DNA of 64,000 nucleotides, taken from Bugula neritina. Taxonomy: Eukaryota; Bryozoa; Gymnolaemata; Cheilostomatida; Bugulidae. The stretch's first letter is position 1, and each line of letters begins with the position of its first letter. Where the stretch lies: contig OZ037768.1 of assembly GCA_964035545.1 (NCBI GenBank), positions 12,958,175 through 13,022,174 on the forward strand. The letters run 5' to 3'. Both the position numbers and the translations under genes were made by a program. The notes under the pieces were generated by a model, which saw only the letters and a program-made list of their open reading frames with translations, did no database searches and had not been told where the DNA came from. Of the stretch, positions 4,346-61,203 are shown piece after piece.

Positions 4346-4704
4346 TTTCGCAGTATAAGCATATTAACATTCAACATAATATCAAAACAATAATGTTTTC
4401 AATAGAAATGTAGACTAATAATTATGATGTAAGCAGTTTTTGTTGTGGGTAGTATTATGATTGTGATGTCATACAACAATGGTATCCCAATTTAAATTTA
4501 GCAAATATTTAAATTTACTATTACATTAACTTCAATATCTTATTATTAGGACTTATAAGCCGCAATTGCGGGTTGTCCATATTTTACAAAGTTGTAAATA
4601 AATTGTTTTAAAAATAGTTCTTAATATATAAGTTAAGTAGCTGCAGGCCAATTGGCTCTAAGTGAATGCATTTTGAATAACTTTTTCACTGCAGGTTTTT
4701 AAAG

Positions 4705-4708
<4 letters not shown>

Positions 4709-4765
<57 letters not shown>

Positions 4766-4766
4766 C
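4709..4766. repeat. (AT)n microsatellite upstream of ankyrin copy 1
   Basis: A TA-dinucleotide run about 360 bp upstream of exon 1. In unit 3 the equivalent array was invaded by a Penelope-like element; in unit 2 its right side is deleted. Confidence 0.95.
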
Positions 4767-7191
4767 TTATAAGAACAATTGAGTACTATTTATACTCTAT
4801 TTTCAGCATGTTTTTTTATTTACTTATATATGGTTGTGCATGCAGTTCACCATTATACAACTTGAGTAAATTAGAATAGTTATAATTGTTTATTGGTAAC
4901 TGTAATTATGAACGTCCCATTATTATTGGTCTCAGAAAAAAATTCAATTATTTCGATACAACGTGCATGTACATAATACAGGAAAATTAATCAGTTTGTG
5001 AATATTAGGGGTAAGGGGGGGGAGGAGGGGGGCATAACGGGGTGAAATTTGAGTTTTTCCTCTCATTCGTCTGTTTTTCATGTTACTAATTCAATAATCT
5101 CTAATCTAAATGCTACATCAGTTGTCTATTATTGGTATCAGTTGGTTGGTTGCTTCTATTTCTTTCACAACTAGTGAAATGCTCATGACGAAAAAATGGC
5201 CCATTGTACCCTGATACGGGGTACAATGGGCTACTGGGTGGGACACAACAAATATATTGAAACTTTGATAATTTGGTTACATCCATTTTTTTAATTTAAT
5301 ATTACAAATAAATAAGAAATATTTTTTCAGATCTACAGGAAAAGTCATGTTTTATCTGTACAGTTTGTGCCACCACAGATAGCAGGGGAGGCAAAATCAA
5401 ACGCACATAACTCATTACTGTTTAAAACTAAAATTGTTTTTTTTCTATTTCCACTTCACAGGAACTTTCATCGGAAAAAACCTTCACTAACATGTACTAA
5501 AAAGTTCCGAGCAGATTTTTTTTGTGAACTGTAGCTAAGGTGTATGGCTGAGGTTTGTGACTGGCGTGCAGAAGAAGGAGGGTGGGGGGAAATGAGCAAA
5601 TCACAATTTATTTTAGTCAATTACATGTATATTTGCTCAATGAATTAATGTATAGTGAATATCATAACTATCCATTAGTAGCAAAAGCAGAGTGCTTGGT
5701 ATGATGTATAAAATGGCAAATTGCTATAACCTCACCAGATGTATGTTAGGGGAGCTTTACCTTGAAGTTTGGTAGTTTTACTATGATGTCTTTGATATTT
5801 TACAAAAATGTCAGAAATGGCTATATCTATAGATTTTAATATTTGAACTATTTTTTTGGGCAAACAAACTAATAACAGTGATCATGGTGCAATGATCAGG
5901 TGGCCAATTGTGGCCCAATCAGCATGGCCAAGTGGCCAAGTTGAAAATAAATGTGGCTCAAGAAAAATTTATTTTAGAGTTTGCTATCATACTAGTTAAG
6001 CAATGTAGAGACAAGCAATGGTAACAATATCAGTAAAATCTAGGCTTGTTACTTTTGAGTGCAAAAATTTACCAAGGTTTAGAGACATCTTAAAAAAAAT
6101 TAGGTAAAAACAGTTTTTGACTTGCCTCTTCAACATGTATGCTCCACGAGTGTTGAAACTGCAATGGCTGAATAATTATGTCAATACCACTTTTTTTATT
6201 AAAAAAAAATCACAATTCTAATAAGTCAACAAGTTCTCACAATTTGATCGGCTTTTTGTACCCCTACGACTGTTGTACTCCCCTCTCCCTACTATTAAAT
6301 TTTAATAACCCGTGAGAGAGAGTTATTTTCTCTCTACTATATTGACTGCTCTTACGAATCTGGAACTAAATTAAATTCTGTAAACCAACTTCAAACTTAT
6401 GTCAGACTGCACTGGCTAGTCAGAAAGATACTTTATAATATTTCAGTTGCCTCATTAGAATTGGAAGCCATTATTGTACCCCATGTAGTGCGGAGTAACT
6501 GTTACTCCTTGCTTTACTATTTTTAAATGAAAACCTGAAATATCGCTTTTCTTCCTTCTTTATATTAATCTTCAAATCTCAGTTCTGATATGAATAAATT
6601 TTTCAGTTGTTGGTGCAAGCAGTTAACTGGTCAGATTGGTTGTTGGCAAATATTGAGAAACGGGGCTTTTGAAAATATATTAAAATATATCTGTTTATTT
6701 TTTCCAACTGTCTCGGAATTAGTGCCACACTACTGAATTATTGATTAATACAAAATGAAAACATTTCCTAATCAATTTGCTTTAAAAATGATGGCTTAAC
6801 ATAAGCTACAACCTCTACATTTCAATTTTGAATCATTGAAATAAAACACGTTTTAACGTGTTAAGTTATGATGAGGATCAACGTTGAGCAAAATAAAAGG
6901 ACATAACACCCATTTACCACATAAAATATATCCCAAGATGCATTGGTAGAACAGACAGTAAAAGTGCACTACATTAAAACATTATATAACATGCCAAGTA
7001 AGAGGTAGAAACAGATAACAGATACTTTCAGTTAGTTACCTAACATCAATATTCTAGATTATCATAACACAATGTAAACTAACTATTAAGACAGTACATA
7101 AGACAGTACATATAAACAGTAATTGTCAAATTAGTATATACTTATGTAAACTAGAGTCTAACTAGAATATTTAATGAACCGTATCAGGGAG
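4767..7191. other. Intergenic stretch without a supported gene; contains a short palindrome
   Basis: I see no credible exon here. It has G-rich (about 5010-5033) and homopolymer tracts. It also has a 33-nt palindrome at 5199-5231 with 13-bp arms GCCCATTGTACCC around a 7-nt spacer. The segment from 4767 to about 5930 is also in unit 3 but missing from unit 2. Confidence 0.6.
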
Positions 7192-10339: not shown

Positions 10340-10353
10340 TCGATAGACGTCGG

Positions 10354-12494: not shown

Positions 12495-12528
12495 CTTGAA
12501 ATGCGCGAAATCCCACCGCTGCCACCAC

Positions 12529-14476: not shown

Positions 14477-14509
14477 GTGGTGGCAGCGGTGGGATAGTGT
14501 ACATCAAAG

Positions 14510-22073: not shown

Positions 22074-22570
22074 GAGCTACACCTAAAACTATTGAAACTA
22101 CAGAGAAAGACATACACAACATTTTTAAACAGCATGGTTTAAGAATCGCAATTAAGGCAAATAAAAGAGCAGTAACTTCTTTTAGATATTTACCTCAATC
22201 TCACAAACCAAATATACAAACCATACAACAAACCAAACAACATTCTCACATACCTGTATGCAAAAGCAAATCATTCACTATAGATTCTCCAAAACAAATC
22301 AGAATCTATAAACAGACGACTCTCATCCATCTCGTTTAATTCTGCTACATTCAGCAACAATGCAATCACCTATCAAGAATCACTCTTCAAAAGCGAACAC
22401 AATCACAAACTAGAATTTTATAAACCTAGAGCAAGCCCCAAGGAGCCGAATCGTTATTATAAGAGGAAAATAACATGTTTCAACCCCCCCCCACGCTCCC
22501 CCCTCCCCCTTTCTTTCAGTAGAAACATAGTGAACAACATGAGCAAGATTGTTTGTGATAAGTTCCCTGC
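22074..22570 (+). mobile_element. Decayed Penelope-like reverse transcriptase fragment, unit 2
   Basis: Fragments in different frames line up with the thumb region typical of Penelope-like elements. In order they are: IFKQHGLRIAIKANKRAV; then, in another frame, LDIYLNLTNQIYKPYNKPNN; then INRRLSSISFNSATFSNNAI; then FYKPRASPKEPNRYYKRKIT; then CFNPP and FSRNIVNNMSKIV. Several frameshifts and stops show it is old. It is present in both units 2 and 3, so it predates the duplication. Assignment rests on recognised motif order, not a search. Confidence 0.55.
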
Positions 22571-30097: not shown

Positions 30098-30121
30098 ACT
30101 GAATGTGTGAAATGGTTTGAA

Positions 30122-32376: not shown

Positions 32377-32425
32377 TGACTTGATTACTGCCAGCAGCTC
32401 CTTGCGGGTAGTGCAGTAATTTCGT

Positions 32426-33757
32426 TCAGCGAGTGAGAGACTTGCTGTAGTAGGCTACTACTACCTCTCGGCCTTCCTGCACTTGTGACAGCACAGCGCC
32501 AACATTTTGGTCACTGGCGTCAGTGTCGAGGATGTACTCCAGAGTGGGGTCTGGGTAGGCCAAGATGGGCGCCGTTAGTAGGCAGCCCTTGAGGCGGTCG
32601 AACGCTCCTTGTTCGACTGGGGTCCACTGCCACGTCACTCCCTTTGCGGTGAGCCGGTTTAACGGCTGTGCTATGCCCGCAAAGTCTGGTATGTATTGTC
32701 TGTAATACCCTACCAGCCCCAAAAAAGCCTGGAGTCCGGTCAAGTCTTGGGGGGTGACCCAGTCTTCTATTGCCCGTACCTTCTTGGGATCCGTTGCCAC
32801 GCCGTTTCGACCGACAACGTGCCCCAGGTACTTAACCTCTGGCTGCAATAGAGCGCACTTAGAAGGTTTGAGCTTGAGACCGGCACCTCGGAGTCTCTCA
32901 AAGACTTCCTGCAGACGACTGACATGTGTCTCGAAGTCTGGGGAGATCACGATGACATCATCGAGGTAGATCAGCAGTGTCTTCCAATGGAGCCCGCTGA
33001 GGACTTGCTCCATCAGCCTCCGGAAGATGGCTGGGGCGGAGGTCAACCCGAAAGGCAACACCTTCCACTTCCACAAACCGTCCCGTGTGATAAACGCCGC
33101 CTTCTCCTGGGCGTCGGGACTCAGAGGGACTTGCCAATAGCCACTCAGCAAGTCTAACGTACTGAAGTACTTTCTGCCGGCTAGGGCGTCCAACGACTCC
33201 TCATTACGAGGTAGAGGGTAGGCGTCCTGTATGGTTACGCTATTGAGTTTGCGGTAATCCACACAGAACCGCCAACTGCCGTCTTTCTTCCGGACCAGTA
33301 CGACCGGCGAGCTCCACGCACTATGGGCGGGCTCTATCAGTCCCCGGTCCAGAAGATCCCGTACTTGTCGGCTAACCTCCTTCTCTTTCTCCGGCCCCAG
33401 CCTGCGCGTGGGCTGCCGGACAGGGACTGTCCCTGCAGTCAGCGATATTTCGTGTCTGACAATTCCAGTCAGTCCCACGTCATGATCTCCGCTGCTGAAC
33501 ACATCACCGTAGTTGCGTAGTAACTTCGCCATAACTTGGCGTTCTTTGTTACTCGCGCAGCCGCTACAGGCTGTGTCATACAACTCCCGGAGATGTGCTG
33601 GGACTGTCCCTCGCCCTTGAGTAGGGCACTGAGGGAGTGCCTCCGTCGCATCACCCAGCGACGGGCCTACGTCTTCCTCCTGAACAGAGTGAAAACGGCC
33701 CAGCATCGACCCAGCCGGAAGCTTGACAGACTCGGTAAAGGGGTTGACGCACTGCAC
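32426..33757 (-). pseudogene. pol: LTR-3 reverse transcriptase and RNase H
   Basis: A 443-residue frame with an uninterrupted RT palm and fingers: GSWRFCVDYRKLN, FSTLDLLSGYWQ, LPFGLTSAPAIF and the YLDD box. RNase H then starts (YILDTDASDQNVGAVL). A 2-nt deletion in SKSL (near 32430) ends it. Here the FGLTSAPAIF junction is intact, which shows that LTR-2 and LTR-5 lost one base at this point. Confidence 0.88.
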
Positions 33758-33893
33758 TAAGATCTCCCCTTGCTCAGTCAGCTGATTCAGACTGCTGGCA
33801 AGTTGGATCTTTTCCTCCAGAGATCCGGCTATTGTTCACCCTGCAGTGAATGGTAGCCCGAGAGCGGCCTGGTATGGTACGGTTGCGTACCAC

Positions 33894-34718
33894 TTACACA
33901 CCTCCCACTAAAAGACGGCCGAACTTGTCGACGCAGGCGAGTTCTCGCCCGGACATCATCATCGCAGATTTACTAAAATCGATGTGACATCCGTGCCGTT
34001 TTAGGAATGGCATCCCGAGGATGGCGTCCTCCTTGAGCTGACTGACGATGAACGTCTCTTGGATCGTTTGATCACGGACTCGTCCCGTCAGCTCAATTAT
34101 ACCATAGAAGGGAAGGCACGACCCGTCAGCTAGGGTGCCATACTCCCCCTCGTATGATTCCATCTCGCCCTTGACCCTAGCACTGAGGGTGTCGAAGAGT
34201 TGGCGGCTTAAGAGGTTCGTGGTACAGCCCGAATCAATGAGGAAAGTAACAGCCTTGCCTTCCAGTTTACCGGGTAAGAAATAGCTGTTCCTATGGGGCT
34301 GCACCTGAACTCTCCCTTCAGGCCTTACTCTCGCAGGGAGTACCTCCCTCGCTTTGGGTCGCGAAGGAGGTCTCTTGGGGCGGTGGTAAGTAGGCCTCGG
34401 GGGTGCCGAGGCTAGATTCCCGGCTACCTTTGTGGGCTCCCATCCAGATTCTTGGGCTTGTAGCCCTGTGAACCTGTTGTGAAGGGGCACGGAAAAGGTA
34501 GCGGCGGGGCGGAGCCCCTTGCTGGTCCGTCGTGGCTGTTGCCACGGTTGGTTACCAGTACGCGGTACCCGTCTGGGTGACCTGCGTTTCTTCTTCCCTG
34601 GAGGTTTCATCGTTGGCCCGCAGGAGGTGGGAACATCTGCGGGCCGCGGTAGTTTAACCCCTGATTTAGGAAGGGACAGTATCTGCGGAAATGTCCTTGA
34701 TTTCCGCATTCCCAGCAA
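33894..34718 (-). pseudogene. pol: LTR-3 protease region
   Basis: A 274-residue frame overlapping the end of gag. Retropepsin active site FLIDSGCTTNLL (D-S-G), flap GTLADGSCLPFYGIIELTG, strand ILGMPFLKRHGCHIDFSKS. It ends at a TAA where the LTR-2 frame continues (VGGV then Gln), and about 28 nt further on are missing relative to LTR-2, so the protease and RT frames are separated. Confidence 0.82.
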
Positions 34719-35560
34719 AAACTGACTGTTTCTCCCTGTGGCGGCGCCGGTGGCCGTACGGGCTCAGTGGCAGTACCTACTGGGGTTTGGGGTGTCAGTG
34801 TTGCTATCAGTTTGGCCAGCATGTCTGTCAGTTGAGTGACTTTCGATGCCGTCGCCAGCTGAGACACGGCAGCCGCAGCGGGGGTTTCCTCCCCTTGTCC
34901 CACGGCCGTGTCTGCGCGGTCTACCTCCACTTGACGGGAGCTCCCGCGACTTTTATGCATTTGATTAGCTAGGAGGTAAGCTTCCCCCTCAGTCAGAGCA
35001 CCTTCAACGGTGGTGACTCCCCTAGCTAAAAACTGGTGGTGGAGACCCAAATCGTCGACAGATGCTATGAAAGCGTCGAGGGTATACCTCTCGCGGTTGA
35101 CTGGGGGCAAGTCGCTGTATGCGATCTGTGCCAGCTTCATGACCGCGGCGGCGTGCTCCCGCAGCGGGGTGCGGGGATCACGCCGCAACCTCTGCAATCG
35201 GGCCCTGGCATCTGTAGCAGAGAGGCCGAAGCGGGCCCGCAGAGAAGCAAAGATATTATCAATGTCTACGCCCAGCCCATAAGGCTTGGCTTTGTCCATC
35301 AATGCCATTCTAAGCTTCAGCAGGGCCACCCTAGGGAGCCACTGGGCGACGTCCATTACGTCGCTAAACTCTTGGATAAATTGTTCCACCTCCTCTTCGC
35401 CCGTGAAGGTGGGCGCCTTTAACCGGTAGCGGTCTTCAGTTAGTTCTCGCGGAACCCTTCGCTCTTCTACTACATGGTTAACAGGCATTGTCTCTACAGC
35501 ATTGTCTCTACGCTCACCTTCTACTGCCGGTGGTTGCGTTCCAACATTTTCAGTCTCCAT
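34607..35560 (-). CDS. gag: LTR-3 gag with intact CCHC zinc knuckle
   Basis: An open 317-residue frame starting METENVGTQ shortly after the primer site. It has the capsid-like region (KAPTFTGEEEVEQFIQEF) and a CCHC knuckle CWECGNQGHFRRYC (about residues 282-295). It is the best-preserved gag of the LTR-2/LTR-3 lineage in this window. It overlaps the protease frame by about 110 nt. Confidence 0.9.
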   Translation of the reverse strand: METENVGTQPPAVEGERRDNAVETMPVNHVVEERRVPRELTEDRYRLKAPTFTGEEEVEQFIQEFSDVMDVAQWLPRVALLKLRMALMDKAKPYGLGVDIDNIFASLRARFGLSATDARARLQRLRRDPRTPLREHAAAVMKLAQIAYSDLPPVNRERYTLDAFIASVDDLGLHHQFLARGVTTVEGALTEGEAYLLANQMHKSRGSSRQVEVDRADTAVGQGEETPAAAAVSQLATASKVTQLTDMLAKLIATLTPQTPVGTATEPVRPPAPPQGETVSFCWECGNQGHFRRYCPFLNQGLNYRGPQMFPPPAGQR

Positions 35561-35898: not shown

Positions 35899-37935
35899 TT
35901 ATTACTAACATTATAGTGAGTGTTCCTAGATTCGAGAAAATATGACAATTCCACTTCTAGGTTATGTAGTTCAACAGTAAGCAGAACATTAACATGGCCA
36001 TTTACAATGTAGGTAATTTTTAATCATAAAAAGTAATGAAGCTAACATACATTGATCAAACTGACTCCAAAATGTTCATAATTTTGCTGAGCTATCTCAA
36101 GTTTAGCAGAATAATTCTCACCTTAGCCCTGCTGCCAGGGGAGACACCATATTTCTCCAGCAGAAGTAAGACTATTGCAGCTTGACCATGCTGAGCAGCT
36201 AGGTGCAGAGCTGTATGTCCATCATCATTTTTGAGTTCAGGCTTTGCACCTTTTTTTAGTAACATCCTAGTTACTGCCTGTTGATTGTTTTCAATGCTGA
36301 CATGGAGAGGCGTCAATCCATTCTACAAGCACCAGCATGCACTGTGTCTACATGTAACTCAAAATACTTCAGGAGAAAATTATACATCAGAAGTGAATTT
36401 CAGAAGAACATTTATTACCAGTCCTAATCAACATACACAATTATTTGTTTTTCTCAAGTGGAGGCACTGAATACACTAAATTGTTACCTTAGTCACAGAA
36501 TGGAATAGTTTTGAATGTTTTGGAAATGAACTTATCACATGTTCATTCCCCTCTTTTGCTGCTACATGCAGCAGGGAATAGTTATCTCTAACCTCAGCAT
36601 TCACATCAAATTCATGCTGCAACAGAAGCAGTACACTCTCTACACTACTCACTACTTCAACTCTTGTTGTTACATAATAAACAAACACTATTTGTATAGC
36701 TATACAGGTTCCTTAAAGCAAAGCACCATTTCTGAAATAGTCAAATAGGAACTTCAAGTCTTCTCAATTTAAAACTAAATGTAAAAGTGAAAATCATTGC
36801 AGTGTAGTTCTACAGTTACTCCAAACTCTTTAAGTTTAGAATGTGCTTACTGAAGATGGGTCTTCATTGTCCAGAGAAGAGGGTGTATGTAGTTGACTAC
36901 TACTGATCTCACTGTGATCAATAGATAGTTCCTCACTGTCAACCTCTATTTCAGATTCACTAGCTCGGCAACATACTAAAAGTGACAATACTGTCATGTA
37001 TAAACTCAGATATATTCATTTTACAATCTGATTCAAGGAACACTATGTGACTTGAATACCACTTCAAAATATCAAACACACCATTAGCCGATCTTCTAAT
37101 TTCATGCCTAGATCTTTACTAAATTTACTGTACCCTTTCGCCCAAAACAAAATAGTAGGTCACAAACTAATACTGTGATTTTGGTTCATCTTCATCCAAT
37201 GGGATTATATTCTGAAGATTGATGGGGATTTTACTGTGTGCAAACATTTGAAAGAAAATATTTGAACTTCTGCCAGATTGGCTATAATGATGGCAAGATG
37301 ATATGGTCAATTTTCCAAATAGTGATGCAGGCAGCTTTAATTAGCCAAGCTGAAAAGGATATGACAAACATTCATATGATGCAGTCACTATAAGAGTGTA
37401 CATACATGTAACTCATCAATATATTTATATTGGTACAAAATCAGCTAACCCTAAGTGACAAAGATATAAAATATTGTAGTTAGACAAGTTTGCAAATTAT
37501 TTAGCTTTTCATGTAAAACTTACCCAAATTGGTAATGGAGGCCCGAAAGCTTCTGAATAATTCTAATATCATTTTCGCAGTATAAGCATATTAACACTCA
37601 ACATAATATTAGGACAATAATGTTTTTAATAAAAATGTAGACTAATAATTATGATGTAAACAGTTTTTGTTGTGGGTAGTATTATGATTGTGATGTCATA
37701 CAACAATGGTATCCCAATTTAAATTTAGCAAATATTTAAATTTACTATTACACTAACTTCAATATCTGATTATTAGGACTTATAAGCAGCAATTGCAGGT
37801 TCTCCATATTTTACAAAGTTGTAAATAAATTGTTTTAAAAATAGTTTTTAATATATAAGTTAAGTAGCTGCAGGCCAATTGGCTCTAAGTGAATGCATTT
37901 TGAATAACTTTTTCACTGCAGGTTTTTAAAGTCTA

Positions 37936-37950
37936 ATATATATATATATA

Positions 37951-37986
<36 letters not shown>
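37936..37986. repeat. (AT)n microsatellite upstream of ankyrin copy 2
   Basis: A short TA array with ATATAATAT interruptions. It is followed directly by GTGGCCAAGTTG, so the ~1.17 kb present here in unit 1 (about 4767-5930) is missing. Confidence 0.93.
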
Positions 37987-40387: not shown

Positions 40388-41413
40388 CTATTTTTGCAGG
40401 GACTGGATCCGGTGTCGTGCCTGCCGTGCACGTAGCCTACGCTTTAGGCGTCCTACTGAGCCCTTCAATTCACTAAGACCCATTGTAGTACTGAGTAAGT
40501 CGGGGGCCAACTGGGTGAATTCATCCTGCAGCCGCAGGAGTCTTTCTTCGACGGTTGCTAGTCGGGTAGGCCTGGTTGGGGTTGACGTCGCTTCTTTTGG
40601 AGAGTCTGATGCTTCCATGGGGGTATTGTCTAGCCGCGGTATGATTGCAGCGACCGTTTTCACCATAGGGGACTTCTGACGGGCGGCTGTTAGCAATGTA
40701 TAAAATCCGGAGGATAATGCGGCCCAGGTTAAAGCCTTCTCAACCACTGGTTTGACCGCTTCTAGGTATTGGTCGTAGTTGTCCGCGTCTACTACATAGC
40801 CCTCGCCCGCGAAACAGTCCATCATGTGAGCCAGGACAGGGTATGGGTACACGTCGTGAAATCTACACGGACAGAAACGTAGCAGAAAGTGTGCATTCAC
40901 ATGCAGCCGTAGTCCTTGGTGTGAGGGAAGCTCTTCGTAACACACATGGCAGGTATGTTGTGACCTACTCGGTCCCAAGGCTTCTTCAATTTGCGGCTCC
41001 GTTCGTCGCGACACCCATCTGTGTCTTCGACGCAGCACCGCGGGCAGTCCGTTGTCCGTTTCTGGTCCGTTATCCAAGGAGGAGAGAGAGTGTAGATCCT
41101 GTGACCTGTTGGTCGATCGAGTGTGATCTGCAAGAGTATAACAGTGTAAGAGGGTACACTGAGTACAACCGGCGTATACAGCCTGGTGGGTACTTAACTC
41201 AATTAGACACTCGTGAGACTCAGTTAATGAATAGTTGATGGAAAACACACACTGCTGTAACGGACTGTTCAGTCTTAGAGTCAATGTGAAGTCTCACCAC
41301 TAAAAATTATTACCGAGTCTCCAGCTTACTCTATTATAGTTAAGCTGATTAATACAGTTTAGCCCTCGTACCAAAAACATAACTAACTCACCTCTCAATT
41401 CCTGGCAAGCCAT
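40388..41413 (-). CDS. LTR-4 accessory zinc-finger ORF (ORF3), probably spliced
   Basis: Tiny exon 41413-41392 (ATG, seven codons plus one base, GTGAGT donor) and main exon 41127-40388; the join is in phase and gives about 253 residues. It differs from the LTR-1 protein at only a handful of positions and has no stop. Finger motifs CHVCYEELPSHQGLRLHVNA and CPCRFHDVYPYP are intact. It has stayed open in both duplicates although the element has lost reverse transcriptase. Confidence 0.68.
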
Positions 41414-41442
41414 TGTGAATGAGAGTGGTATGTTTATGATTT

Positions 41443-42449
41443 CTACGTATGTCTACTCAAAGCTGTATTAATGTGATGAAAGAGCGAGTAGCGTGGTTGT
41501 GAAACGTGACTATGACTTATTACCTCCGGCGTATAAATCTTATTTGAATTTCCGCCGAGGCAAAAGTTGATATTTTTGTGGTGCTCACAACTCCCACGCT
41601 CTGCTCTCTTCCCCTCACGACGCCTCGTAGGGCGTTTGACCGCGCCCTGAACGGAACGTGGTAAGTCCTTGCAATACGCGGGGCCTGGCTTAGGACACCG
41701 TTTCCGAGGTGTCGTCACTAACCAAGGCGGTTTACGCACCCGTGGACGGTCACGTCTCACAGGTGGTGCTTCCAGCCAATTTGTGACAAATGGAGCTTTC
41801 CCAGTACCTCCGCATGGAGCCCCTCCCTTGGGGGGTTTTTGCACTTCCAGGTCGGTTCCTGACCTAGGTGGTGGACGGTGTCCCGGGAGTGGCCGGGCAT
41901 AGTACAGGCACGTACTATCGGCTCTTCTCCCGTTAGGGGATTGCCAAACTTATCGACACAGGCGAGGTCCCTGCCGCCCATAATCATCGCAGATTTACCA
42001 AAATCAATGCGACCTCCGTGTCGTTGTAAGAATGGCATCCCAAGGATGGCGTCCTCCTGGAGTTGTCCTACTATGAACCTCTCCTGGATGGTCTGGTCAC
42101 AGACGCTCCCAGGGAGTTCAATGATACCGTAGAAGGGGATGCACGACCCGTCTGCCAGGGTGCCATGATCGCCTTCATACGGTTCCAACTCTGCGGTCCG
42201 TCGTTTGTCAAACCTGTTGCGGGGTGGCATTGAGAACACCGGCGTCGAGCGGCTTGCACAGCCTGCTTGCCATCCTGGTGGCCGTTCCGCGAGGTTTCGG
42301 ACGGGTGTCCGGCGTGGTAGACGCCACTGTGTCCTCTCTTGAGGTTTTAACGGCGGCCCGCCGGATGTGGGAGCATCCGCGGGCTGTCGTAGTTTAACCC
42401 TGGTTGAAGTCGGGGACAGTGTTTCTGGAAGTGTCCTGGTCTTCCGCAC
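41443..42449 (-). pseudogene. LTR-4 protease and post-pol remnants
   Basis: Frames 42449-41757 and 41844-41443. The 246-bp deletion removed the protease active-site region (no DTG remains). The flap-like GTLADGSCIPFYGIIELPG and ILGMPFLQRHG are kept. The 1020-bp deletion then joins this to the Pro/Arg-rich tail, ending with the NINFCLGGN segment. Confidence 0.72.
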
Positions 42450-43276
42450 CCCCAGCAGGAGGGGCGTCCTCTACCAGGCGACTGCACCGGTGGCCCGTCA
42501 AGCTCACGGGTGGTGACTAGCTGGCTTTCCAAGGTGGAGACCAGTTCGGCTAGCATGTCAGTCATTTGTGCGACCTGTGATGCCACCGTCATCTGCGTCA
42601 CCTTGGCCACCACTGGAATTTCCGCGTGAGAAGCGGTAGGAGCAGCAGAGGGCTCCATGTCCACCTGACGAGAAGTCACACGGCTCCGGTGCAGCTGGCT
42701 GGCCAGAAGGTAAGCCTCCCCTTCTGCCAGCGCACCTTCGACCGTGGTGACTCCCCTCGCCAAGCGTTGGTGATGGAGTTCCAAGTCGTTGATGGACTGC
42801 ACGAAGGCATCATAGGCATACCTCTCACGGTTTACTTGCGGCAGATCGCGGAACGCAATCTGCGCCAGTCTCATAATCGTGGTAGCCTGCTCTTGTAGCG
42901 GCGTGTGAGGATCACGCCGTAGTCTTTGAAGACGGGCCCGCGCATCCACAGCGGAGATACCAAAACGGGCCCGCAAGGAAGCAAAGATGCCGTCAATGTC
43001 TGGTCCCACTCCGTATGGCTTGGCTTTGTCTGACAGCGCCATCCTGAGCTTGAGCAATGCTATTCTAGGTGGCCATTGTGCAACCTCCATTACATCTTTG
43101 AATTCCTGAACGAATTGCTCCACTGGCTCTTCACCTGAGAAGGTGGGTACCCTCAGCCGGTACTTCTCTTCGTAACATTCCCTATGTACTCGCACTTCTG
43201 GTTCTATAGGTATAGCAATGTTATCTTCCTCACCTTCATTCCTCTGAAGGGGTAGCTCTGTGCCTCTTTCTGTCAT
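42347..43276 (-). CDS. gag: LTR-4 gag with CCHC zinc knuckle
   Basis: An open 309-residue frame, nearly identical to LTR-1 gag, including CWGCGRPGHFQKHC. Both duplicates remain uninterrupted. Confidence 0.88.
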   Translation of the reverse strand: MTERGTELPLQRNEGEEDNIAIPIEPEVRVHRECYEEKYRLRVPTFSGEEPVEQFVQEFKDVMEVAQWPPRIALLKLRMALSDKAKPYGVGPDIDGIFASLRARFGISAVDARARLQRLRRDPHTPLQEQATTIMRLAQIAFRDLPQVNRERYAYDAFVQSINDLELHHQRLARGVTTVEGALAEGEAYLLASQLHRSRVTSRQVDMEPSAAPTASHAEIPVVAKVTQMTVASQVAQMTDMLAELVSTLESQLVTTRELDGPPVQSPGRGRPSCWGCGRPGHFQKHCPRLQPGLNYDSPRMLPHPAGRR

Positions 43277-43310
43277 CTTGAAATGCGCGAAATCCCACCG
43301 CTGCCACCAC

Positions 43311-43652
43311 TGTTGTGAGTTTTAGCACAATTATTAAGCGTGGATTGCCTGCGTATTTAGTTTCAATTTAACTAGCAACTACTAACAGAGCTTGCGTACG
43401 ATAACCTTTATTTAATTCGATAAACATAATTATAACAGTATGTCAAAACCACAATACATCAATCAATTATAACACGTCTTACTACTACGAGCCCCTGCTC
43501 TCAACACACATGGTTTTGCTAGCTAACCCGCGAACAGTCACTTGACCGGAACCTTGCCTTCCGGTCCTTCTGATTGGATAGTAAAACATAGTTATAAGTA
43601 TTCCCATACAGGAGGGGACGAATCCATTATTATACTACGTAATCCCTTTACA
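43311..43652 (-). repeat. LTR-4 5' LTR
   Basis: A 342-bp repeat followed by CTAT, matching LTR-1 12529-12870. Confidence 0.92.
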
Positions 43653-44266
43653 CTATTTATTGTATCTTTATAAACAGAAATAAAATTATTGTTGTTTGCT
43701 GAAGCACTGCTGAGTAAATTGCCTCACAACATTAATTCACTAGTATTTCTACAAGGTCAAATGTGCTTCCTATATTAATGAAAAACGAAAAATGAGAGAA
43801 GTTGAACTTGGACAACTCAAACGTAGACATGCAAAATTTGTCAATCAATCCAAAGTTTCCAGTCAAAATAATGATTCTAGCAAACCACCCAGTAAATAAA
43901 AATATTATACACCTCAAGGTATATGAGTAGAGTATTTTATTCATTTAGGCTAGATATACAAAAGGATGTTTGTACTAAAAAGAAGACGCTGATAGACATA
44001 AGGGTCAAGTCAATACAATGGAATTTCTTCCCAAACATAAAGCAGAAGTAAGCTTAATTCTTGCATTATCTGTCATAAAATCATCTACAGTCTTTTATTG
44101 TCATCAAAATGTTGCACTCTTCTAAGAGAATAAAGTTGGTGTAGCAGTGAATCTCAGTAAGTAAGATGAAAGTGTTGACTCAACTGCCAGAGCTGGTTGC
44201 ACCCACAAGACTGCCAGGGCTGGTTGCACCCACAAGACTGCCAAAGCTGGTTTATAGTCTACTTTT

Positions 44267-47200
44267 ATGTCACCAGCCAAAAGTGAATCATTGTTTGATA
44301 ACTTTGATAGAGATGACTTTCATATACAGGTTACTTCTGCTTATAATCAATTATAGTAATTTATTGAGTTGGCTATATAACTCATAAATAGCATTATTGT
44401 AGCTTCTAGATACAGTTCGAGATTGTATAGAGTTGTAATAGATTCAACATAATTTACTAGTTACTATAGTCGCTGATTCTTTACCTTGCTTAATAAATAG
44501 GTCACAGTAATATGAGAGAAGAACTTTTGTAACTGAGCACATATTGAGGTTTCAATAAATGATCAAAACATATTATACTTGCTGTGATTGTACAATAAGG
44601 TCGAAATGATTTTCTTTTAGGTGAATGGTATGCAAGATATTGATTGTGAGACTGTAAAAAATTTGCCATTGGTTCATACTAACAATTTGAAGGTGACACC
44701 TCATATAGGGAAAGTCAGGTGGAAGTTAAGCTGTATCATCTATGTTGGTAATAACTATACTGGAAGTTTCAGCTACAAGCCGAGGTAATATAGAGCTTTA
44801 TGACAGTCAAAATAATTTACTAGAACTTTTCAAGTTCATTTTAGCATGAAGTGTCTATCCACGAGAACTTATACCCAGTGTGATTTTACAATAGCAATGC
44901 AATAATTTCCTTTTAGGTGTATGGTATGCAAGATAATGATTGTGAGACTGTTGAAGGTTTGCCATTGGTCCATACTAACAATCTAGCTGCAGGCGACACC
45001 TCATACAGGGAAAGTCAGGCGGGCTTCAAGCTGTATCACCTATGTTGGTAATAACCATACTGAAAGTCCCAGCTACAGGTCGAGATGATATAGTTGTATT
45101 CAAAATAATTTACTAGATTTTTTTCAAGTTTTTTTAGCATAAAGATATATACAAAATTGGTAAGTTTTCCATGCTCCCACAACTTTGATGCAATGAGATA
45201 TAGAACATGTTTCTTGCGATAATATTGAGTATGGATATAGTACTATTGTGGTGGCTCGTGGAGCTACCAACAGCACAATACGCAGGGTCGCGTATTGACC
45301 CGGAACAATGTACTCAGCCAATTAGCGAAGCTGCTAGTGAGTAGCAGTAGTTAGCTTCGCGCTACTAGTCAGTTGTGAATAGTGTGATAAATTAAATAGA
45401 CGCGTAGATTTCTGGATATTCTGTACCGTTTTTATTATGTATCTTATACTCAAAATATACTCTTATTAACTCGATCTATCCTGGTGAAGTTCTCTGGCAA
45501 GTAAATAGACTCTCTTGATTACACATCAACCCTAATTCTGAAAAATACAACAGTGGTGGCAGCGGTGGGATAGTGTACATCAAAGATGGAGACTGAAAAT
45601 GCTAGATTGCAGCCACCCCCAGTAGAAGGTGAGCGTAGAAATGATGTTATTCCTGTAGATCAGGTGGGAGAAGAGGCTTATCAATATCGCTTGAAAGCCC
45701 TCACCTTTACTGGGTCAAAAGATGTCAAACAGTTTATACAGGAGTTTAGAGAAGTAATGGATATTGCACAATGGCCACATAGAGTGGGCCTTATCCAGTT
45801 GCGGAGAGTGTTGGCGGAGCAAGCCAAGCCGTACGGAATGGGAACGAACGTAGACGGGATATTGGCTGCGTTGCGGGGCCGCTTTGGCATCTCCGCAATA
45901 GACGCCAGGACCCGGTTACAGAGATTGTGCCGCGCCCCGCAGATCTCGCTGCAAGAGCATGCCGCGACGGTGAAGAAGCTGGCACAAATTGCATATGGTG
46001 ACCTACCAGTACAACATCAAGAGCGTTACACCTACGACGCTTTTGTCCAGTCACTGAACGACCTGGGCCTACACCACCAACTACGAGCTAAAGGGATCAC
46101 CACGATAGAGAATGCCCTAAAGGCTGGAGAAGCTTATCTGTTGGCTATCCAAATGCATCGAGCGCAAGGGAACCCACCAGCAGTTGAAGTCAATGCTGCC
46201 AGAGCTACGGCGGGCCCCGAAGCTCCCCCCTTGGAAGCCGAAGTAGACCGTATGGTAGAGATGTTGGGACAGCTGGTAACGATTCTTGCCAGCGCTGGCC
46301 CCGGTCAGGACCTGCGGTTGCTCCCAGCACCTGCGGGGCCGGGCTGGTGTAAAGCTGGTCAAGACCATAGACAGCAAGGACGACCCCAACACCAGGGGGC
46401 GTTAAACTGTCACGGCCCGCGGACGCCCTTCCTCCCCGCGGGCCGAAACTGAAGGAGCAGGGTGGGACACGCCGCCGCCTGTCCGTACGGACACGACGGT
46501 ATACTCCCCCCGAGTGGCAGGTACCACGCAGGACTAGCAGGCCTGCACAGCGGCCGAGTACCTTCTCCTTGTCACTCACCAACCGGTTCCACCGGTTACC
46601 TCGGGAAGAGGAGCCCGCCACTGAATTAGAGCCAGAAGGCCCAGTGGAGAGCTCTGAACCTCGCCAGCACCGACCACGCCGCCGGAAACCCCATAAACCA
46701 CGGGTAATACCCCGCCGTCCTACCCATTTAGGACAACACATGCGGGGGGGGGTGAAAGTGCAACCACACGGAGAGAGCTATTTCCTACCCGGAAAGGTGG
46801 CGGGTAATGCCGTCACCTTCCTGCTAGACTCTAGTTGTACTACCAACCTTCTCAAACGTAGAGTCTTTGAGGCACTGCCCCGCCAAGACAGGGATAGAGT
46901 ACGACCGTATACAGGAGAACATGGCACCCTAGCAGGAGGGTCGTGTATTTCCTTCTACGGTATTATCGAGCTCCCTGGGCGTGTCCAAGACCAGGCTGTA
47001 CAAGAGACCTTTGTTATAAGCCAGCTGGAGGAAGATGCTATCCTCGGAATGCCTTTCTTGAAGCAGCACCAATGCCGCATAGACTTTAGCAAGTCGGCAA
47101 TGCTGATGGGCGGGCGAGAACTCGCCTGTGTGGATAGGTTTGGGCGTCCTCTGGTGAGCGGTGTTCAGGTAGTTCGAAACTGCACTGTACCCGGGCGCTC

Positions 47201-50200
47201 TAGAGCCACTATCCACTGCCGAGTGAACAGCAACCGGATAGCAAGACTCGGGGTCGTTGAAGGCGCGCAAGAAAGGATCCAACTCGCCAGTAGTTTAAAC
47301 CAACTGACTGAGCGAGGGGAAATCTTAGTGCAGTGTGTCAACCCCTTCACCGAGCCCATCAAGCTCCCAGCTGGGTCAATGCTGGGCCGGTTCCACTCCG
47401 TCCAGGAAGAGGACGTGGGCCCGTCGCTAGGTGATGCGACGGAGGCACCCCCTCGGCACCCTACTCAAAGGCAAGGGGTGGTCCCAACACACATCCGGGA
47501 GTTATATGAAACAGCCTGTGGTGGCTGCGCGAGTAACAAGGAACGCCAAGCTATGGCGAAGTTACTACGCGACTACGGTGATGTGTTCAGCAGCGGAGAT
47601 CATGACGTGGGACTGACTGGAGTTGTCAGACACGAAATACCGCTGACTGCAGGGACAGCCCCTGTCCGGCAACCCACACGCAGGCTGGGGCCGGAAAAAG
47701 AGAAGGAGGTTAGCCGACAAGTACGGGATCTTCTGGACCGCGGCCTCATAGAGCCCGCTCATAGTGCGTGGAGCTCGTCGGTCATACTGGTCCGGAAGAA
47801 AGACGGCAGTTGGCGGTTCTGTGTGGATTACCGCAAACTCAATAGCGTAGCCATACAGGACGCCTACCCCCTACCTCGTATTGACGAGTCACTGGATGCC
47901 TTAGCCGGCAGCAAGTACTTCAGTACGTTAGACTTGCTGAGTGGCTACTGGCAAGTTCCTCTGAGTCCCGACGCCCAGGAGAAAGCGGCGTTTATCACAC
48001 GGGACGGTTTGTGGAAGTGGAAGGTGTTGCCTTTCGGGTTAACCTCCTCCCAGCCACTTTCCAGAGGCTGATGGAGCAAGTCCTCAGCGGGCTCCATTGG
48101 AAGACACTGCTGATCTACCTCGATGATGTTATCGTGATCTCCCCAGACTTCGAGACGCATGTCAGTCATCTGCGGGAGGTCTTCGAGAGACTCCGAGGTG
48201 CCGGTCTTAAGCTCAAACCTTCCAAGTGCGCTCTGTTGCAGCCGGAGGTCAAGTACCTGGGGCACGTTTTCGGTCGAAACGGCGTGGCAACGGATCCCGA
48301 AAAGGTACGGGCGATAGAAGACTGGGTCACCCCCCAAGACTTGATCGGACTTCGGGCTTTCTTGGGGCTGGTAGAGTATTACAGGCAATACATACCGGAC
48401 TTTGCGGGCATAGCACAGCCGTTAAACCGGCTCACCACAAAAGGGGTGACGTGGCAATGGATCCCGGTCGAACAAAGAGCGTTCGACCACCTCAAGGGTT
48501 GCCTACTAACGGCGCCCATCTTGGCCTACCCAGACCCCACTCTGGAGTACATCCTCGACACTGACGCCAGTGACCAGAATGTTGGCGCTGTGCTGTCTCA
48601 AGTGCAGGAAGGCCGAGAAGTAGTAGTAGCCTACTACAGCAAGTCTCTCTCACCCGCTGAACGGGACTACTGCACTACCCGCAAGGAGCTGCTGGCAGTA
48701 ATCAAGTCAGTGAAGCACTTCAGACCATACTTATACGGCAGGGAGTTCCGGCTGCGTACGGATCATGCCTCGCTGATCTGGTTGTGCAAGAGAGCAGCGC
48801 CCTCCAGTCAGGTCGCCCGGTGGCTCGAAATCCTAGCTGAGTTCTCGTACCGGATCGAACATTGACCGGGCAAAAGACACAGCAAAGCGGATGGGCTGAG
48901 CCGCCGACCTAATGGAGGTTGCAAACAGGGTCTCAACATCGAGAGGAGGGACGGAGGTCCCCCGCGATGCGAATTAGAGACACTGGCTCACCACAGAGCA
49001 CAGTTTGACTGGGATCAGGGTCAGCTCAGGCAGAAAGTTAACGAGTCCCCGGAGGTTGTACTAAACCTCCGCGCCAATCCTGTACTGACCGGTAATGTCC
49101 GGGAGCTGAAGAAGCTCCAAGGAGAGCTGTCTGGGGTAGTAGCGGACATATATCGGACCAAAAAGGAAGGGCGGCGACCCAGCAAGGAACGCATACGGCA
49201 GGGATGCGCTGAGTTCCGGCTATACTGCCAGCGTTGGGACTCGCTGCGGATCAGGCAGGATGGTCTACTGACCATTTCTCTAGCTGCCAGCGGCAGACAT
49301 CCGGAGAGGAAGAGGGTGGTCTGTCTCACTGCCATCCGCCGTGAGTTGATTTGGGACACTCACAAACAGGCTCACGCAGGAGTCAAGAGAGTGATCTTCA
49401 AACTACGACTCCGGTGGTATTGGCCACAAATGAAGCGGGACGTCCGACTCAGAGTCAAGCAGTGCGAAATCTGCCAGGCCAGTAAGCATGGCCGTCTCCC
49501 TGGTGAAGCCGGACAGCGGAGGCTATATGCTGGCAGGCCCTGGCAAGTGGTAGCTGTTGACCTGGTCGGACCCATGCCCCTGACCCCCAGAGGCAATAGT
49601 TGGATATTAGTATTGACAGACCACATTACTATGTGGGCAGACGCTCTGGCTATCCCAGATGCGTCAGCCCCAAAAGTGGCCAGGGCGCTAGACCAACATG
49701 TATTCTGTTATTTCGGGCTTCCCGAACAGATACACTCTGATCAAGGCACGCAGTTTCAGTCCCAACTGATGAGCGACCTTTGCCGCCTCTAGAGAGTAAA
49801 TCAGAGCAGGACGACTCCCTATCACCCCCAAGGTAACGGGGTGGTGGAGCGCAATAACCGGATGCTAGGTGATGCGCTCCGAAGTCTCCTCCTTGGACGC
49901 GGTCAAGAGGAATGGGACACGGTGTTGCCGCAAATCATGCGTGCATACCGTAGCACCCCACACACCAGTACTGGTGAGACCTCAAACCTCTTGATGCTCG
50001 GGAGAGAGACTCGTATCCCTGACCATCTTACCTACCACGTTCCAGAGCAAGACAACTCGGTTCACGAGTATGCCAGTGAACTAGTGGAACGGATGAAGGT
50101 CGCACACGATATACTGCGCGAACAGCAGTGGAAGGTGCGACACGAAGATTTCAAGGAACCACCCCTATACCAGACGGGAGATAAGGTGTGAATGGTCAAT

Positions 50201-51936
50201 TACCGTAGGCGTCGCGGACAAGCAGCTAAGCTACAGCCTAAGTTCGTGGGACCCTACGTGATCGTCGAGGCGATGCGCAACCATACGTACCAGATCGAGC
50301 GCTCAGGACAGGTGTCTTTTCAGAATGAGTCTCGCTTGAAGCCGTATTGGGCTAGCCCTGACACAGCGGGAGAAGCCCCCCCCCCCCGTTGTTGGAGCCT
50401 AGAAGGCAGACAACAACGCGTCGGCGACGGCGGCAGGGACTTGAATATGAAGTCGTCATACCGCGGGAGGAAGACTTGGTGAGAGATGAGCGATCGCTTT
50501 TACCAACAGAAGCGCGCCCGCCACCGCCAAATCTAATTCCATCACTTCCAGAAACCGAGCCGGTTCCGGAAGTGCAAAACCCCATCGAGGGAGGGGTTCT
50601 ATCCGGAGAACAAGAAGAAGTGACCACCAACGGTGAAGTAGAGACGCCACCAGAGGCCCCTACTAATAAACCGGCGAGCGTGTCACCCCCCTAGAACGGG
50701 GACAACGTACGAGGAAACCCCCACCATATTTAAAAGACTTCGTATGTGACTGCATTAAAAACGGCACGCATGAAAGTCTAGGGGAAAACCGTACGAGAAA
50801 ATGTTGGAGTTGCAAGCCCCACGCAAATATCAACTTTTGCGAGGGCGGAGTAGTGGGAGGAATTAATGCGCATAAAGCAAATAGTTCCGACCTCGTGCCA
50901 CAGAAACGATGCCCAGCCTTTTCTTACGCTGACATCGCCAAGGGCAGACGTACCTCACAACTAGCTCCAACCTTACCACGAACATTGAGTATGGACACTA
51001 ATACCGAGTTCACAGGTAAGCCAGTATAAGTCTTGTATTCCTATCTATGGAAACAGGCCCGATGCCAGTAAATTCTGAGCTAATCCATCAGATTGAATCA
51101 GAATTACTGGGGACCGTTTAGTCCACTGATGTACGTGTTACTTGTGAATTATATTTTTTATATCAGAAAGAGGGCTTTCTGCTGGTGGGGGCGGTGTGGT
51201 GGCTCGTGGAGCTACCAACAGCACAATACGCAGGGTCGCGTATTGACCCGGAACAATGTACTCAGCCAATTAGCGAAGCTGCTAGTGAGTAGCAGTAGTT
51301 AGCTTCGCGCTACTAGTCAGTTGTGAATAGTGTGATAAATTAAATAGACGCGTAGATTTCTGGATATTCTGTACCGTTTTTATTATGTATCTTATACTCA
51401 AAATATACTCTTATTAACTCGATCTATCCTGGTGAAGTTCTCTGGCAAGTAAATAGACTCTCTTGATTACACATCAACCCTAATTCTGAAAAATACAACA
51501 CTATCACTAATTATAGGAATTACAAGAGTTTCTCTTTAGCAATATTCCAAAACATCCCATCTAGCTGGCTGGTGATATTCAAGCTGATACTTTAAGTATA
51601 AGACAGAGAGTTGTAACACTCAGCTCTCTGATGACTCTATTCTTCCAGAAAAGGTTTGCTACTTCCAGACATCTCTTTATGTATATCTACTTTGTTGAAC
51701 TTATGTTCACATTGATGTTGTAAAAACTTCTACTTGCATTTGTTGTTCTGTTTTCTTCAGTGAAAGTTCCCAAGACAAGAGGAGCAGCAAATCGTCATGC
51801 ACACAAAAAAGTCGACATAACAGGTTATGACGAAGCCAAGACTTGTGAACATGTTGGCACATTCTTCTTAAATCATGTGACCAGTAAGAACGTCCCAGCT
51901 CCGGTTCACACCAAAACTAAGAAAAAGGAGTTTTGA
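44267..51936 (+). CDS. Candidate three-exon gene of unknown function, unit 3 copy (LTR-5 in last intron)
   Basis: Exons 44267-44329 (MSPAKSESLFDNFDRDDFHI plus Q, ends CAG|GTTACT), 44621-44747 (starts VNGMQDIDCETV, ends KVRWKLSCIIYV plus one base, GTAATA donor) and 51761-51936 (starts VPKTRGAANR after the junction, ends TKTKKKEF and TGA). Phases agree (0, then 1) and the joined frame is open, about 120 residues. A second, longer copy of exon 2 lies at 44917-45047 and does not keep phase. Exon 2 resembles ankyrin exon 7 in inverted orientation, including its acceptor, its donor and a KVR/KIR core. No known domain. The start exon is the least certain part. It may be a relic. Confidence 0.38.
45247..45552 (+). 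repeat. LTR-5 5' LTR
   Basis: A 306-bp repeat, TGTGGTGGC...ATACAACA, preceded by CTAT. Confidence 0.94.
45586..46452 (+). CDS. gag: LTR-5 gag (zinc knuckle degenerate)
   Basis: An open 288-residue frame matching LTR-2 gag. The knuckle region reads GPGWCKAGQDHRQQG: one Cys and the His remain, the other two Cys are absent. LTR-2 has lost even that Cys, so decay continued independently. Confidence 0.85.
   Translation: METENARLQPPPVEGERRNDVIPVDQVGEEAYQYRLKALTFTGSKDVKQFIQEFREVMDIAQWPHRVGLIQLRRVLAEQAKPYGMGTNVDGILAALRGRFGISAIDARTRLQRLCRAPQISLQEHAATVKKLAQIAYGDLPVQHQERYTYDAFVQSLNDLGLHHQLRAKGITTIENALKAGEAYLLAIQMHRAQGNPPAVEVNAARATAGPEAPPLEAEVDRMVEMLGQLVTILASAGPGQDLRLLPAPAGPGWCKAGQDHRQQGRPQHQGALNCHGPRTPFLPAGRN
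46569..48071 (+). pseudogene. pol: LTR-5 pol part 1: protease and N-terminal RT
   Basis: A 500-residue frame; it opens earlier than in LTR-2 and includes the basic region before protease. The protease triad is DSS as in LTR-2. RT motifs GSWRFCVDYRKLN and FSTLDLLSGYWQ are present. It ends at the same 1-nt deletion after LPFGLTS. Confidence 0.86.
48011..48865 (+). pseudogene. pol: LTR-5 pol part 2: C-terminal RT and RNase H
   Basis: Contains YLDD and the RNase H motifs, and ends at the TGA shared with LTR-2 (after YRIEH). One private change replaces a Gly of LVGYY with Glu. Confidence 0.87.
48866..50482 (+). pseudogene. pol: LTR-5 pol part 3: integrase with internal stops
   Basis: Same frame and same internal TAG (49790-49792) and TGA (50189-50191) as LTR-2. 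HHCC, D...D...E core and GPY-like segment are visible. After the C-run near 50380 the C-terminal tail continues in another frame at 50389-50694. Confidence 0.85.
51195..51500 (+). repeat. LTR-5 3' LTR
   Basis: A 306-bp repeat after the polypurine tract at 51184-51194, followed by CTAT. Confidence 0.94.
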
Positions 51937-52433
51937 GAGCTACACCTAAAACTATTGAAACTACAGAGAAAGACATACACAACATTTTTAAACAGCATGG
52001 TTTAAGAATCACAATTAAGGCAAATAAAAGAGCAGTAACTTCTTTTAGATATTTACCTCAATCTCACAAACCAAATATACAAACCATACAACAAACCAAA
52101 CAACATTCTCTCATACCTGTATGCAAAAGCAAATCATTCACTATAGATTCTCCAAAACAAACCAGAATCTATAAACAGACGACTCTCATCCATCTCGTTT
52201 AATTCTGCTACATTCAGCAACAATGCAATCACCTATCAAGAATCACTCTTCAAAAGCGAACACAATCACAAACTAGAATTTTATAAACCTAGAGCAAGCC
52301 CCAAGGAGCCGAATCGTTATTATAAGAGGAAAGTAACATGTTTCAACCCCCCCCACGCTCCCCCCTCCCCCCTTTCTTTCAGTAGAAACATAGTGAACAA
52401 CATGAGCAAGATTGTTTGTGATAAGTTCCCTGC
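51937..52433 (+). mobile_element. Decayed Penelope-like reverse transcriptase fragment, unit 3
   Basis: Duplicate of 22074-22570 with the same order of broken motifs, starting IFKQHGLRITIKANKRAV. It is not connected to the private Penelope-like insertion at 60.6 kb. Confidence 0.55.
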
Positions 52434-60478: not shown

Positions 60479-60601
<123 letters not shown>

Positions 60602-60630
60602 GAAGTAAAATGAGATTTGATTAATATAAT

Positions 60631-60690
60631 GGCAGTTATTACTAGTAGTTTCGTACACAAGAACGATGTGCACTCGTCAGATTTTACCAT
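60631..60690 (-). ncRNA. Hammerhead ribozyme motif, inverted copy (weak stem I)
   Basis: On the minus strand, CTGACGA is at 60680-60674, the 7-bp stem II and its loop are at 60673-60653, and GAAA is at 60652-60649. A 3-bp stem III follows, with cleavage expected after the A at 60640. Core and stems II/III match the plus-strand copy. Stem I is poorly paired near the core because the left flank differs (TAAAAT instead of TAATTTAT), so activity is doubtful. Confidence 0.6.
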
Positions 60691-60977
60691 ATCCTGGAAA
60701 ATTCTCAGAAAAGCTCAACCATACAACAACAACACTAAAAACTGTCAGCTATGCTCATGGGAGAAAAATTTTTTATTCTTTATAAGCCACAGTTGTCTTC
60801 CCTCAATAAGCGCTATGACTTTTTATCCATATGCAGACATAGTAGTAAATTTCTACTCAAGAATGCTGTAACATAGCCAATTAATTCCAATGCTACCTCT
60901 TTGTTATATTTTGATCTTCTAGCTTTAATCTGTGTATATTTACATATTACATTATTTATAGTTGTAAGCAATCATAG

Positions 60978-61040
60978 TGGCTAATTTATCTGACGAGTGC
61001 ACATCGTTCTTGTGTACGAAACTACTAGTAATAAATGCCA
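60978..61040 (+). ncRNA. Type I hammerhead ribozyme, complete-looking
   Basis: All conserved parts are visible. Core CTGACGA is at 60990-60996 and GAAA at 61018-61021. Stem II pairs GTGCACA (60997-61003) with TGTGTAC (61011-61017) in seven pairs, one of them G-U, around loop TCGTTCT. Stem III is 3 bp: A61021-C-T with A-G-T61029, loop ACT. Cleavage would follow A61030 (GUA). Stem I pairs ATTTAT (60984-60989) with ATAAAT (61031-61036), then TGGC (60978-60981) with GCCA (61037-61040), with a TA bulge on the 5' side. In Penelope-like elements such ribozymes are thought to process element RNA. Confidence 0.85.
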
Positions 61041-61137
61041 TTATATTAATCAAATCCCATTTTACTTCTTCTAATGTTTATGCTCTAGATTTATTTCTAT
61101 AGAGCACTCTAGTAACGTTTTATAAACACTCATTTTA

Positions 61138-61138
61138 C

Positions 61139-61201
<63 letters not shown>
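61138..61201. repeat. (AT)n microsatellite, right of the Penelope-like insertion
   Basis: TA repeats with one ACATAT interruption, continuing into the ACTTATAA sequence that follows the single array in unit 1. Confidence 0.95.

Positions 61202-61203
<2 letters not shown>

Follow-up and report, generated by a model that had tools for sequence, protein, structure and literature searches.

How does a Penelope-like element (PLE) enter its target, and what part does the hammerhead ribozyme that it carries play in the process? Both the insertion route of PLEs and the role of their ribozymes are open questions, and they meet in a 64,000-nucleotide (nt) stretch of the Bugula neritina genome (contig OZ037768.1 of assembly GCA_964035545.1; hereafter the window), where a hammerhead motif lies within a PLE copy inserted in an alternating TA tract. 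The copy has two arms, of which only one carries an extra tail of about 58 nt; the other ends short. More than 100 clean ends of each type, tail and short, in the TA tracts of this one compact genome turn both questions into counts: the ends indicate that most insertions use each of two reverse transcriptase (RT) start sites once, and the starts argue against cleaved linear RNA as the usual template. More than 100 genomic copies suggest that the element inserts by RNA copying onto both strands of the TA target, without a prior cut by the ribozyme. The window insert itself is, in our judgement, very probably a 5′-truncated endonuclease-type PLE in (TA)n, bearing its hammerhead in a pseudo-long terminal repeat (pLTR) and placed by priming on two strands with an uncleaved RNA template.

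An earlier reading, made from the letters alone (the sequence-only reading), placed a complete type I hammerhead at 60978..61040, and every part that it named is present. The heptamer CTGACGA occupies 60990-60996 (window coordinates, + strand) and is followed by a 7-bp stem II (60997-61003 / 61011-61017) with a 7-nt loop, by GAA at 61018-61020, and by A15.1 at 61021. Stem III comprises 3 bp (61021-61023 / 61027-61029) around the loop ACU, and the cleavage triplet GUA lies at 61028-61030, predicting a 5′ end at 61031, the same position as that reading gave. Stem I has an inner part of 5 bp (60985-60989 / 61031-61035), then an asymmetric UAA/U bulge, and beyond it an outer part of 8 bp (60974-60981 / 61037-61044); traced to this end, the motif is slightly wider than first drawn and spans 60974-61044. 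The core CUGANGA...GAA, the A15.1-U16.1 pair, the NUH triplet, closed stems II and III, and an open stem I together uphold the assignment to type I.

A chance origin, which the same reading considered very unlikely, is not borne out by the controls: the full descriptor (three stems, core, and NUH triplet) matches the window once and matches none of 300 dinucleotide shuffles on either strand, and the looser pattern CTGANGAN{5,35}CGAAAC gives 2 window matches against 0.12 expected. The Rfam covariance model gives a divided answer. A scan of the whole window at the gathering score returns no match, as RF00163 Hammerhead_1 scores 28.3 bits against a gathering score of 34, which is a curator's threshold and not a structural feature; the E-value of 9.5e-5 in a 701-base search (length-scaled, about 0.01 for the whole window) does pass the E-value threshold. 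Over the whole genome, RF00163 yields no match among the 73 of 15,744 candidates scored, and with the controls silent no absence is claimed. A further loose pattern gives 1049 matches against 571 in the reversed control, and with so high a background these counts were not used.

The claim that the ribozyme belongs to a Penelope-like insertion is borne out by a remnant of the PLE open reading frame (ORF) beside it (60680-60873) and by relatives with the full ORF in the same genome. Its placement as a single ribozyme at the insertion end holds only in part: a complete copy is present, but there are two mirrored cores, and the cleavage site lies about 110 nt inside the end. The two cores point outwards, and the second falls within a 94-nt inverted repeat (60589-60682 / 60988-61081; 96% complementary). 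On the − strand of the window the full descriptor finds no complete motif; stem I of the second core is without its 5′ strand, since the left arm starts about 2 nt before this core and the letters ahead of it are the 5′ end of the right arm. The left core is therefore probably inactive on its own. Taken as a whole, the insert (about 60595-61140) is a 5′-truncated element copy that interrupts a (TA)n tract, and any target-site duplication is masked by this position inside (TA)n. Its left flank recurs at 37860-37986, there with a different right flank. The hammerhead is genuine, and the PLE copy that holds it is decayed and unremarkable (Table 1).

Table 1. The insert, its ribozyme cores, and its flanks in the window. 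Element positions are counted from the first base of CTGACGA (position 0).
Feature	Position	Strand	Basis and remarks
Complete type I hammerhead ribozyme	60974-61044	+	Sequence reading, Rfam model, fold, descriptor; predicted cleavage between 61030 and 61031
Second hammerhead core	60680-60648	−	Pattern search; 33 letters identical to right core; stem I 5′ strand missing; fold z 0.03
(TA)n tract, left flank of insert, part of target	60483..60594	.	Sequence; paralogous unbroken tract 4709-4771
Left arm: inverted element piece, about −2 to short end (TTCTTCTAAT then (AT)n), no tail	60595..60681	−	
Right arm: element from about −308 to tail end (CACTCATTTTAC then TATATA)	60680..61140	+	
Remnant of Penelope-like ORF 3′ end: residues 643-706 of 706-aa relative, two reading frames	60680..60873	+	tblastn
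Tail: extra ~58 nt, on one arm only	61082..61140	+	
(TA)n tract, right flank of insert	61141..61202	.	Sequence
Paralogous empty site: same flanks, (TA)n tract unbroken, no insert	4640..4860	+	

Relatives in the same genome retain a 706-aa ORF with a telomerase-like RT fold, as is characteristic of PLE reverse transcriptases, and at L073 and L078 this is the sole long ORF between the repeats. The pLTRs occur in direct or inverted orientation, and one of them may carry a tail, again as in PLEs; this tail stops upstream of where the ORF starts. Pfam GIY-YIG gives no match in the protein of the element itself; among 18 aligned homologues it matches 1 (E 1e-5), at the position corresponding to YIGIS, and across the genome it matches one place, on C1 (E 5.9e-8). 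Sequence searches of the PDB with the ORF and with an alignment returned no usable match. A second PLE family in this genome (L012/L013; about 50% protein identity) likewise forms a mirrored pair, and its hammerhead stems differ in sequence yet, judged by eye, still pair.

The pairing of ends carries the argument. With the ribozyme ignored, exact ends number 125 tail and 119 short genome-wide. Restricted to C1-C6, the count is 95 tail and 85 short ends, which give 63 divergent pairs: 61 are mixed, 2 tail/tail, and none short/short; treating pairs as independent, the excess of mixed pairs has a chance probability of about 2e-16. Divergent neighbours outnumber tandem ones by 63 to 1, and 54 of the 180 ends have no exact partner within 5 kb. 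This count involves no selection by similarity or gap, and the patterns for both ends include the adjoining TA run. Among openly licensed PMC papers we found no earlier statement of such a one-tail, one-short count, and make no claim of its absence from print.

Counts that start from the ribozyme agree. The exact 20-nt core has 174 genomic matches (reversed control, 0); neighbours within 5 kb, among the 100 core places listed, are 35 divergent, 2 tandem, and 2 convergent, and in 20 of the 35 divergent pairs among these listed matches the cores lie 10-52 nt apart. A tail is present on exactly one arm in 19 of 20 fetched pairs, a sample in which 19 of the 20 come from the short-gap class; the exception, L089, has a curtailed right arm and no tail on either side. 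The first 20 loci fetched were chosen by similarity to the window, which favours the tail arm, and the second 20 mostly by a short gap between exact cores; in the earlier typing of 38 divergent pairs, 3 were untypable. Ten apparent single-core loci were also read. L104, L108, L110, and L111 are mixed pairs in which the tail arm stops before the ribozyme core, and L107 is mixed too, though the core of its partner is altered; at L102, L105, and L109 the element abuts (TA)n directly, and for L103 and L106 the fetched piece ends short of any partner. Many short copies have outer spans of 134-291 nt. The two tail/tail pairs lie at G000:C3:14446252-14446511 and C4:13178671-13178745, the latter spanning only 75 nt.

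The target is equally uniform: alternating TA accounts for at least 12 of the first 20 outside nt in 72 of the 83 typed arms of L062-L101. The other 11 have shorter or interrupted TA runs, lie on the ORF side of direct repeats (L073, L078), or comprise one element-like flank and two ends that were not located. An earlier ‘TAend’ flag was weak, firing inside L073 too, and the flanks were recounted as alternating TA.

The two arms of any one copy share a template. The family divides at a C/T site, and there all 35 readable pairs agree (22 C/C, 13 T/T), with 3 more readable on one side only. Over 86 nt, the mean number of differing sites between the arms of one copy is 0.47; partners drawn by shuffling give 1.09, and a value this low came up in 0 of 20,000 shuffles. 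This test covers 38 of 40 pairs, as two pairs whose arms cannot be aligned without gaps, the second pair of L071 and that of L089, were dropped. Later gene conversion between arms could add to the similarity. Truncation of the two arms is independent: −1359/−698 in L063, −583/−1635 in L062, and −2/−308 in the window.

At short junctions many arms stop at a common point. Of the 38 arms at 19 short junctions (18 of the 19 short-gap loci plus L002, leaving out L087 with variant upstream sequence and L101 with a 303-nt gap), 21 reach to 15 or 16 nt upstream of the core and no further, which is where stem I has its outer end; for overlapping arms, the position of an end is uncertain by the length of the overlap. 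The simplest reading of this cluster is an RNA 5′ end at −15/−16, with RT halting at stem I as an alternative cause. Microhomology as the only source of the cluster is weakened by overlap-free arms in L083, L084, L095, L096, L097, L098, and L099. A junction of 21 nt recurs at 5 of 20 loci. We rejected its origin as one spreading composite: the longer arm is on the tail side or the short side, and in both the C and T subfamilies, so the junction was made more than once. At the junctions of L084 and L097, two cases only, additional C/G letters stand right at the −16 ends, which is what copying of a cap might produce.

These observations are best explained by the following route. The element protein would cut both strands of a TA tract, and the 3′ ends so freed would each prime cDNA synthesis on RNA of the element, with each start site used by one of them. 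The two head-to-head arms are each a partial copy of the same kind of RNA, one started from the tail site, the other from the short site about 58 nt further upstream, and the two cDNAs would be joined near their 3′ ends with an overlap of at most a few nt. The RNA template would not be ribozyme-cleaved; the many cDNAs that end at −15/−16 are consistent with an RNA 5′ end there. A stricter version, tentative and in our view a little short of an even chance, holds that double priming is obligate and asymmetric: a two-part element particle would cut the TA tract on both strands and make a tail start and a short start on one RNA species, itself transcribed from the outer end of stem I onwards. The ribozyme would act elsewhere, for example in trimming or releasing RNA after dimerising via its near-palindromic stem III. 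If true, the two start sites would be halves of one reaction and not alternatives.

The rival that survives best is self-priming, in which the first cDNA folds back and is copied to give a palindromic insert; passages of PMC3846280 propose it for Adineta Penelope, with an antisense template. The head-to-head layout, the common template of the arms, and the near-perfect palindromes at many junctions all suit it. A fold-back copy should, however, reach the end of the first arm and copy the tail too, leaving two tails, whereas 61 of the 63 pairs have one, and arms are often truncated far apart, as at L063 and in the window. The data thus favour two cDNAs begun on RNA at two sites, and we regard self-priming as unlikely.

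A much smaller probability attaches to the idea that the ribozyme makes the template, that is, that RNA cleaved to a 5′ end at equivalents of 61031 is reverse transcribed. The motif is kept in copies and, with different but pairing stems (by eye), in the second PLE family, as this idea would lead one to expect. Were cleaved linear RNA the template, arms should start at AATAAATGCC; yet junctions with both arms at AATAAATGCC or within 30 nt of each other number 0, and the one-sided start test gives 2 places, at each of which both arms extend past the cleavage site. The 22-mer running downstream from the cleavage site has 229 copies, falling to 222 when extended by 6 nt across the site and to 221 when extended by 6 nt at the other end (the three counts include 6, 5, and 6 copies, respectively, from a 110-nt array at L112). 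With the loss across the site no larger than at the other end, the counts show no surplus of copies that begin at the cleavage site; a circular RNA template would go undetected in these counts. Of the 7 copies lost across the site, the 3 inspected are small changes in continuous copies (C1:33615907, C2:7172998, and C3:9894209), and the nearest arm end observed, that of the tail arm of L110, lies about 6 nt downstream of the site. Moreover, ribozyme mutants of the Anolis PLE insert normally in vitro (PMC11167929). The genome gives no sign of cleaved linear RNA as the insertion template, and neither shows nor excludes cleavage in the cell.

Slightly less probable still is a metazoan retrozyme, in which a small non-autonomous repeat with ribozymes at its bounds would spread through RNA that cleaves itself and is then circularised. 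The type I hammerhead, the many short copies with their narrow outer spans, and the one 110-nt tandem array speak for it. Retrozymes are, however, described in passages of PMC7229834 as direct tandem repeats with RNAs of about 170-400 nt, whereas direct tandem repeats bounded by hammerheads are not the rule here (63 divergent pairs against 1 tandem); longer copies carry the RT ORF, no excess of copies starts at the cleavage site, and the 110-nt array has no CTGACGA. A DNA transposon with terminal inverted repeats that happen to hold a hammerhead would explain the outward-facing inverted arms, but can be set aside almost entirely given a fixed tail that distinguishes the arms, inner truncation that varies between copies, and an ORF of the RT family.

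The fold of the ribozyme bears on how it might work. The monomeric active fold is predicted at −15.9 kcal/mol against −17.8 for the minimum-energy fold, and the 3-bp stem III contributes no stability (−15.9 kcal/mol with it, −16.0 without). Between two molecules, the 9-mer ACUACUAGU forms 8 bp with one C.C mismatch. The self-cleavage of which the sequence-only reading considered the copy apparently capable would, with a stem III so short and without stability in cis and with 8-bp pairing in trans, more likely involve a dimer or help from a protein. Two other hammerhead families of the genome have palindromic or near-palindromic stem III segments, ACTATATAGT and ACAGCTGCTGT (by eye), the former carried by the second PLE family. 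There, the palindromic stem III and compensating stems support a dimeric form and selection on structure. That PLE ribozymes act as dimers is reportedly stated in a 2014 abstract by Cervera and de la Pena. An elongated helix III and cleavage as a dimer are documented for newt and viroid hammerheads, according to passages of PMC6155905, and for axolotl retrozymes, in parts of PMC7229834; the Anolis PLE ribozyme cleaved only with the element protein present (PMC11167929). The ribozyme would probably act on tandem or dimeric transcripts, or be aided by the element protein, outside the insertion step.

Among the closest known systems is PAc, a Penelope/Poseidon-type PLE of Anolis carolinensis with an RT and GIY-YIG ORF and hammerhead-bearing pLTRs (PMC11167929), a likeness to be read with GIY-YIG here in 1 of 18 homologues only. 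Shared with PAc are an AT-rich target and, here as proposed above, two neighbouring internal RT start sites, which account for the tail, with both target strands cut and extended; the PAc ribozyme is dispensable for insertion in vitro, and the genomic counts here likewise give no sign of ribozyme-cleaved linear RNA as template. In contrast to PAc, ends here run into alternating TA (72 of 83 arms), the tail of about 58 nt ends upstream of the ORF start and not inside the ORF, and most paired ends are mirrored inserts that use each start site once. Pen2a and its relatives in the rotifer Adineta vaga share, in the passages of PMC3846280 concerned, an inverted head-to-head pLTR, 5′ truncation, palindromic junctions, and an optional tail (31 bp there) on one inverted pLTR. 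Those passages treat individual copies and self-priming, whereas here 63 pairs are counted and tell against simple self-priming; the word hammerhead is absent from PMC3846280. cDNAs started on RNA at two sites thus fit both the double-strand extension and adjacent start sites of PAc and the one-sided tail of Adineta. Minimal PLE hammerheads, in parts of PMC6155905, likewise lie in PLE repeats with helix III short or absent; the present motif, with its 13-bp stem I, internal bulge, and 7-nt loop II, is nearer to canonical type I. Metazoan retrozymes, as passages of PMC7229834 describe them, also have type I hammerheads in small repeated units, but as non-coding direct tandem repeats, whereas the repeats here are mostly inverted and come from a coding PLE. 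The value of the present finding lies in the genome-wide record: 61 mixed among 63 pairs, a shared template, TA targets, and no footprint of ribozyme cleavage.

Some further observations touch the same family and its surroundings. The 110-nt tandem array occupies L112 433-1255 (G000:C3:9893550-9895150) with 7.5 copies at 99% and covers element positions of about +20 to +129; it lacks the ribozyme half that holds CTGACGA, and its 3′ end, in (TA)n, is of the usual short type. It could stem from copying round a small RNA circle or from later DNA expansion. A third hammerhead family (CTGATGAGGGGACAAATCCCGAAAC and close variants), found for example at L011, L014, L020, L028, and L029, has (TA)n closely after it in these five and direct repeats in places, and is possibly retrozyme-like. 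Elsewhere in the window, diverged Penelope-like RT fragments with 30-32% amino-acid identity lie on the + strand at 21919-22418 and 51811-52413, one in each of two copies of a repeated segment. Retrotransposon ORFs also lie in the duplicated stretches 8340-20000, 29025-35560, and 40388-49792; in the first of these, the stretch covered by the scan, ORFs match models of aspartic protease (weakly), RT, RNase H, and integrase.
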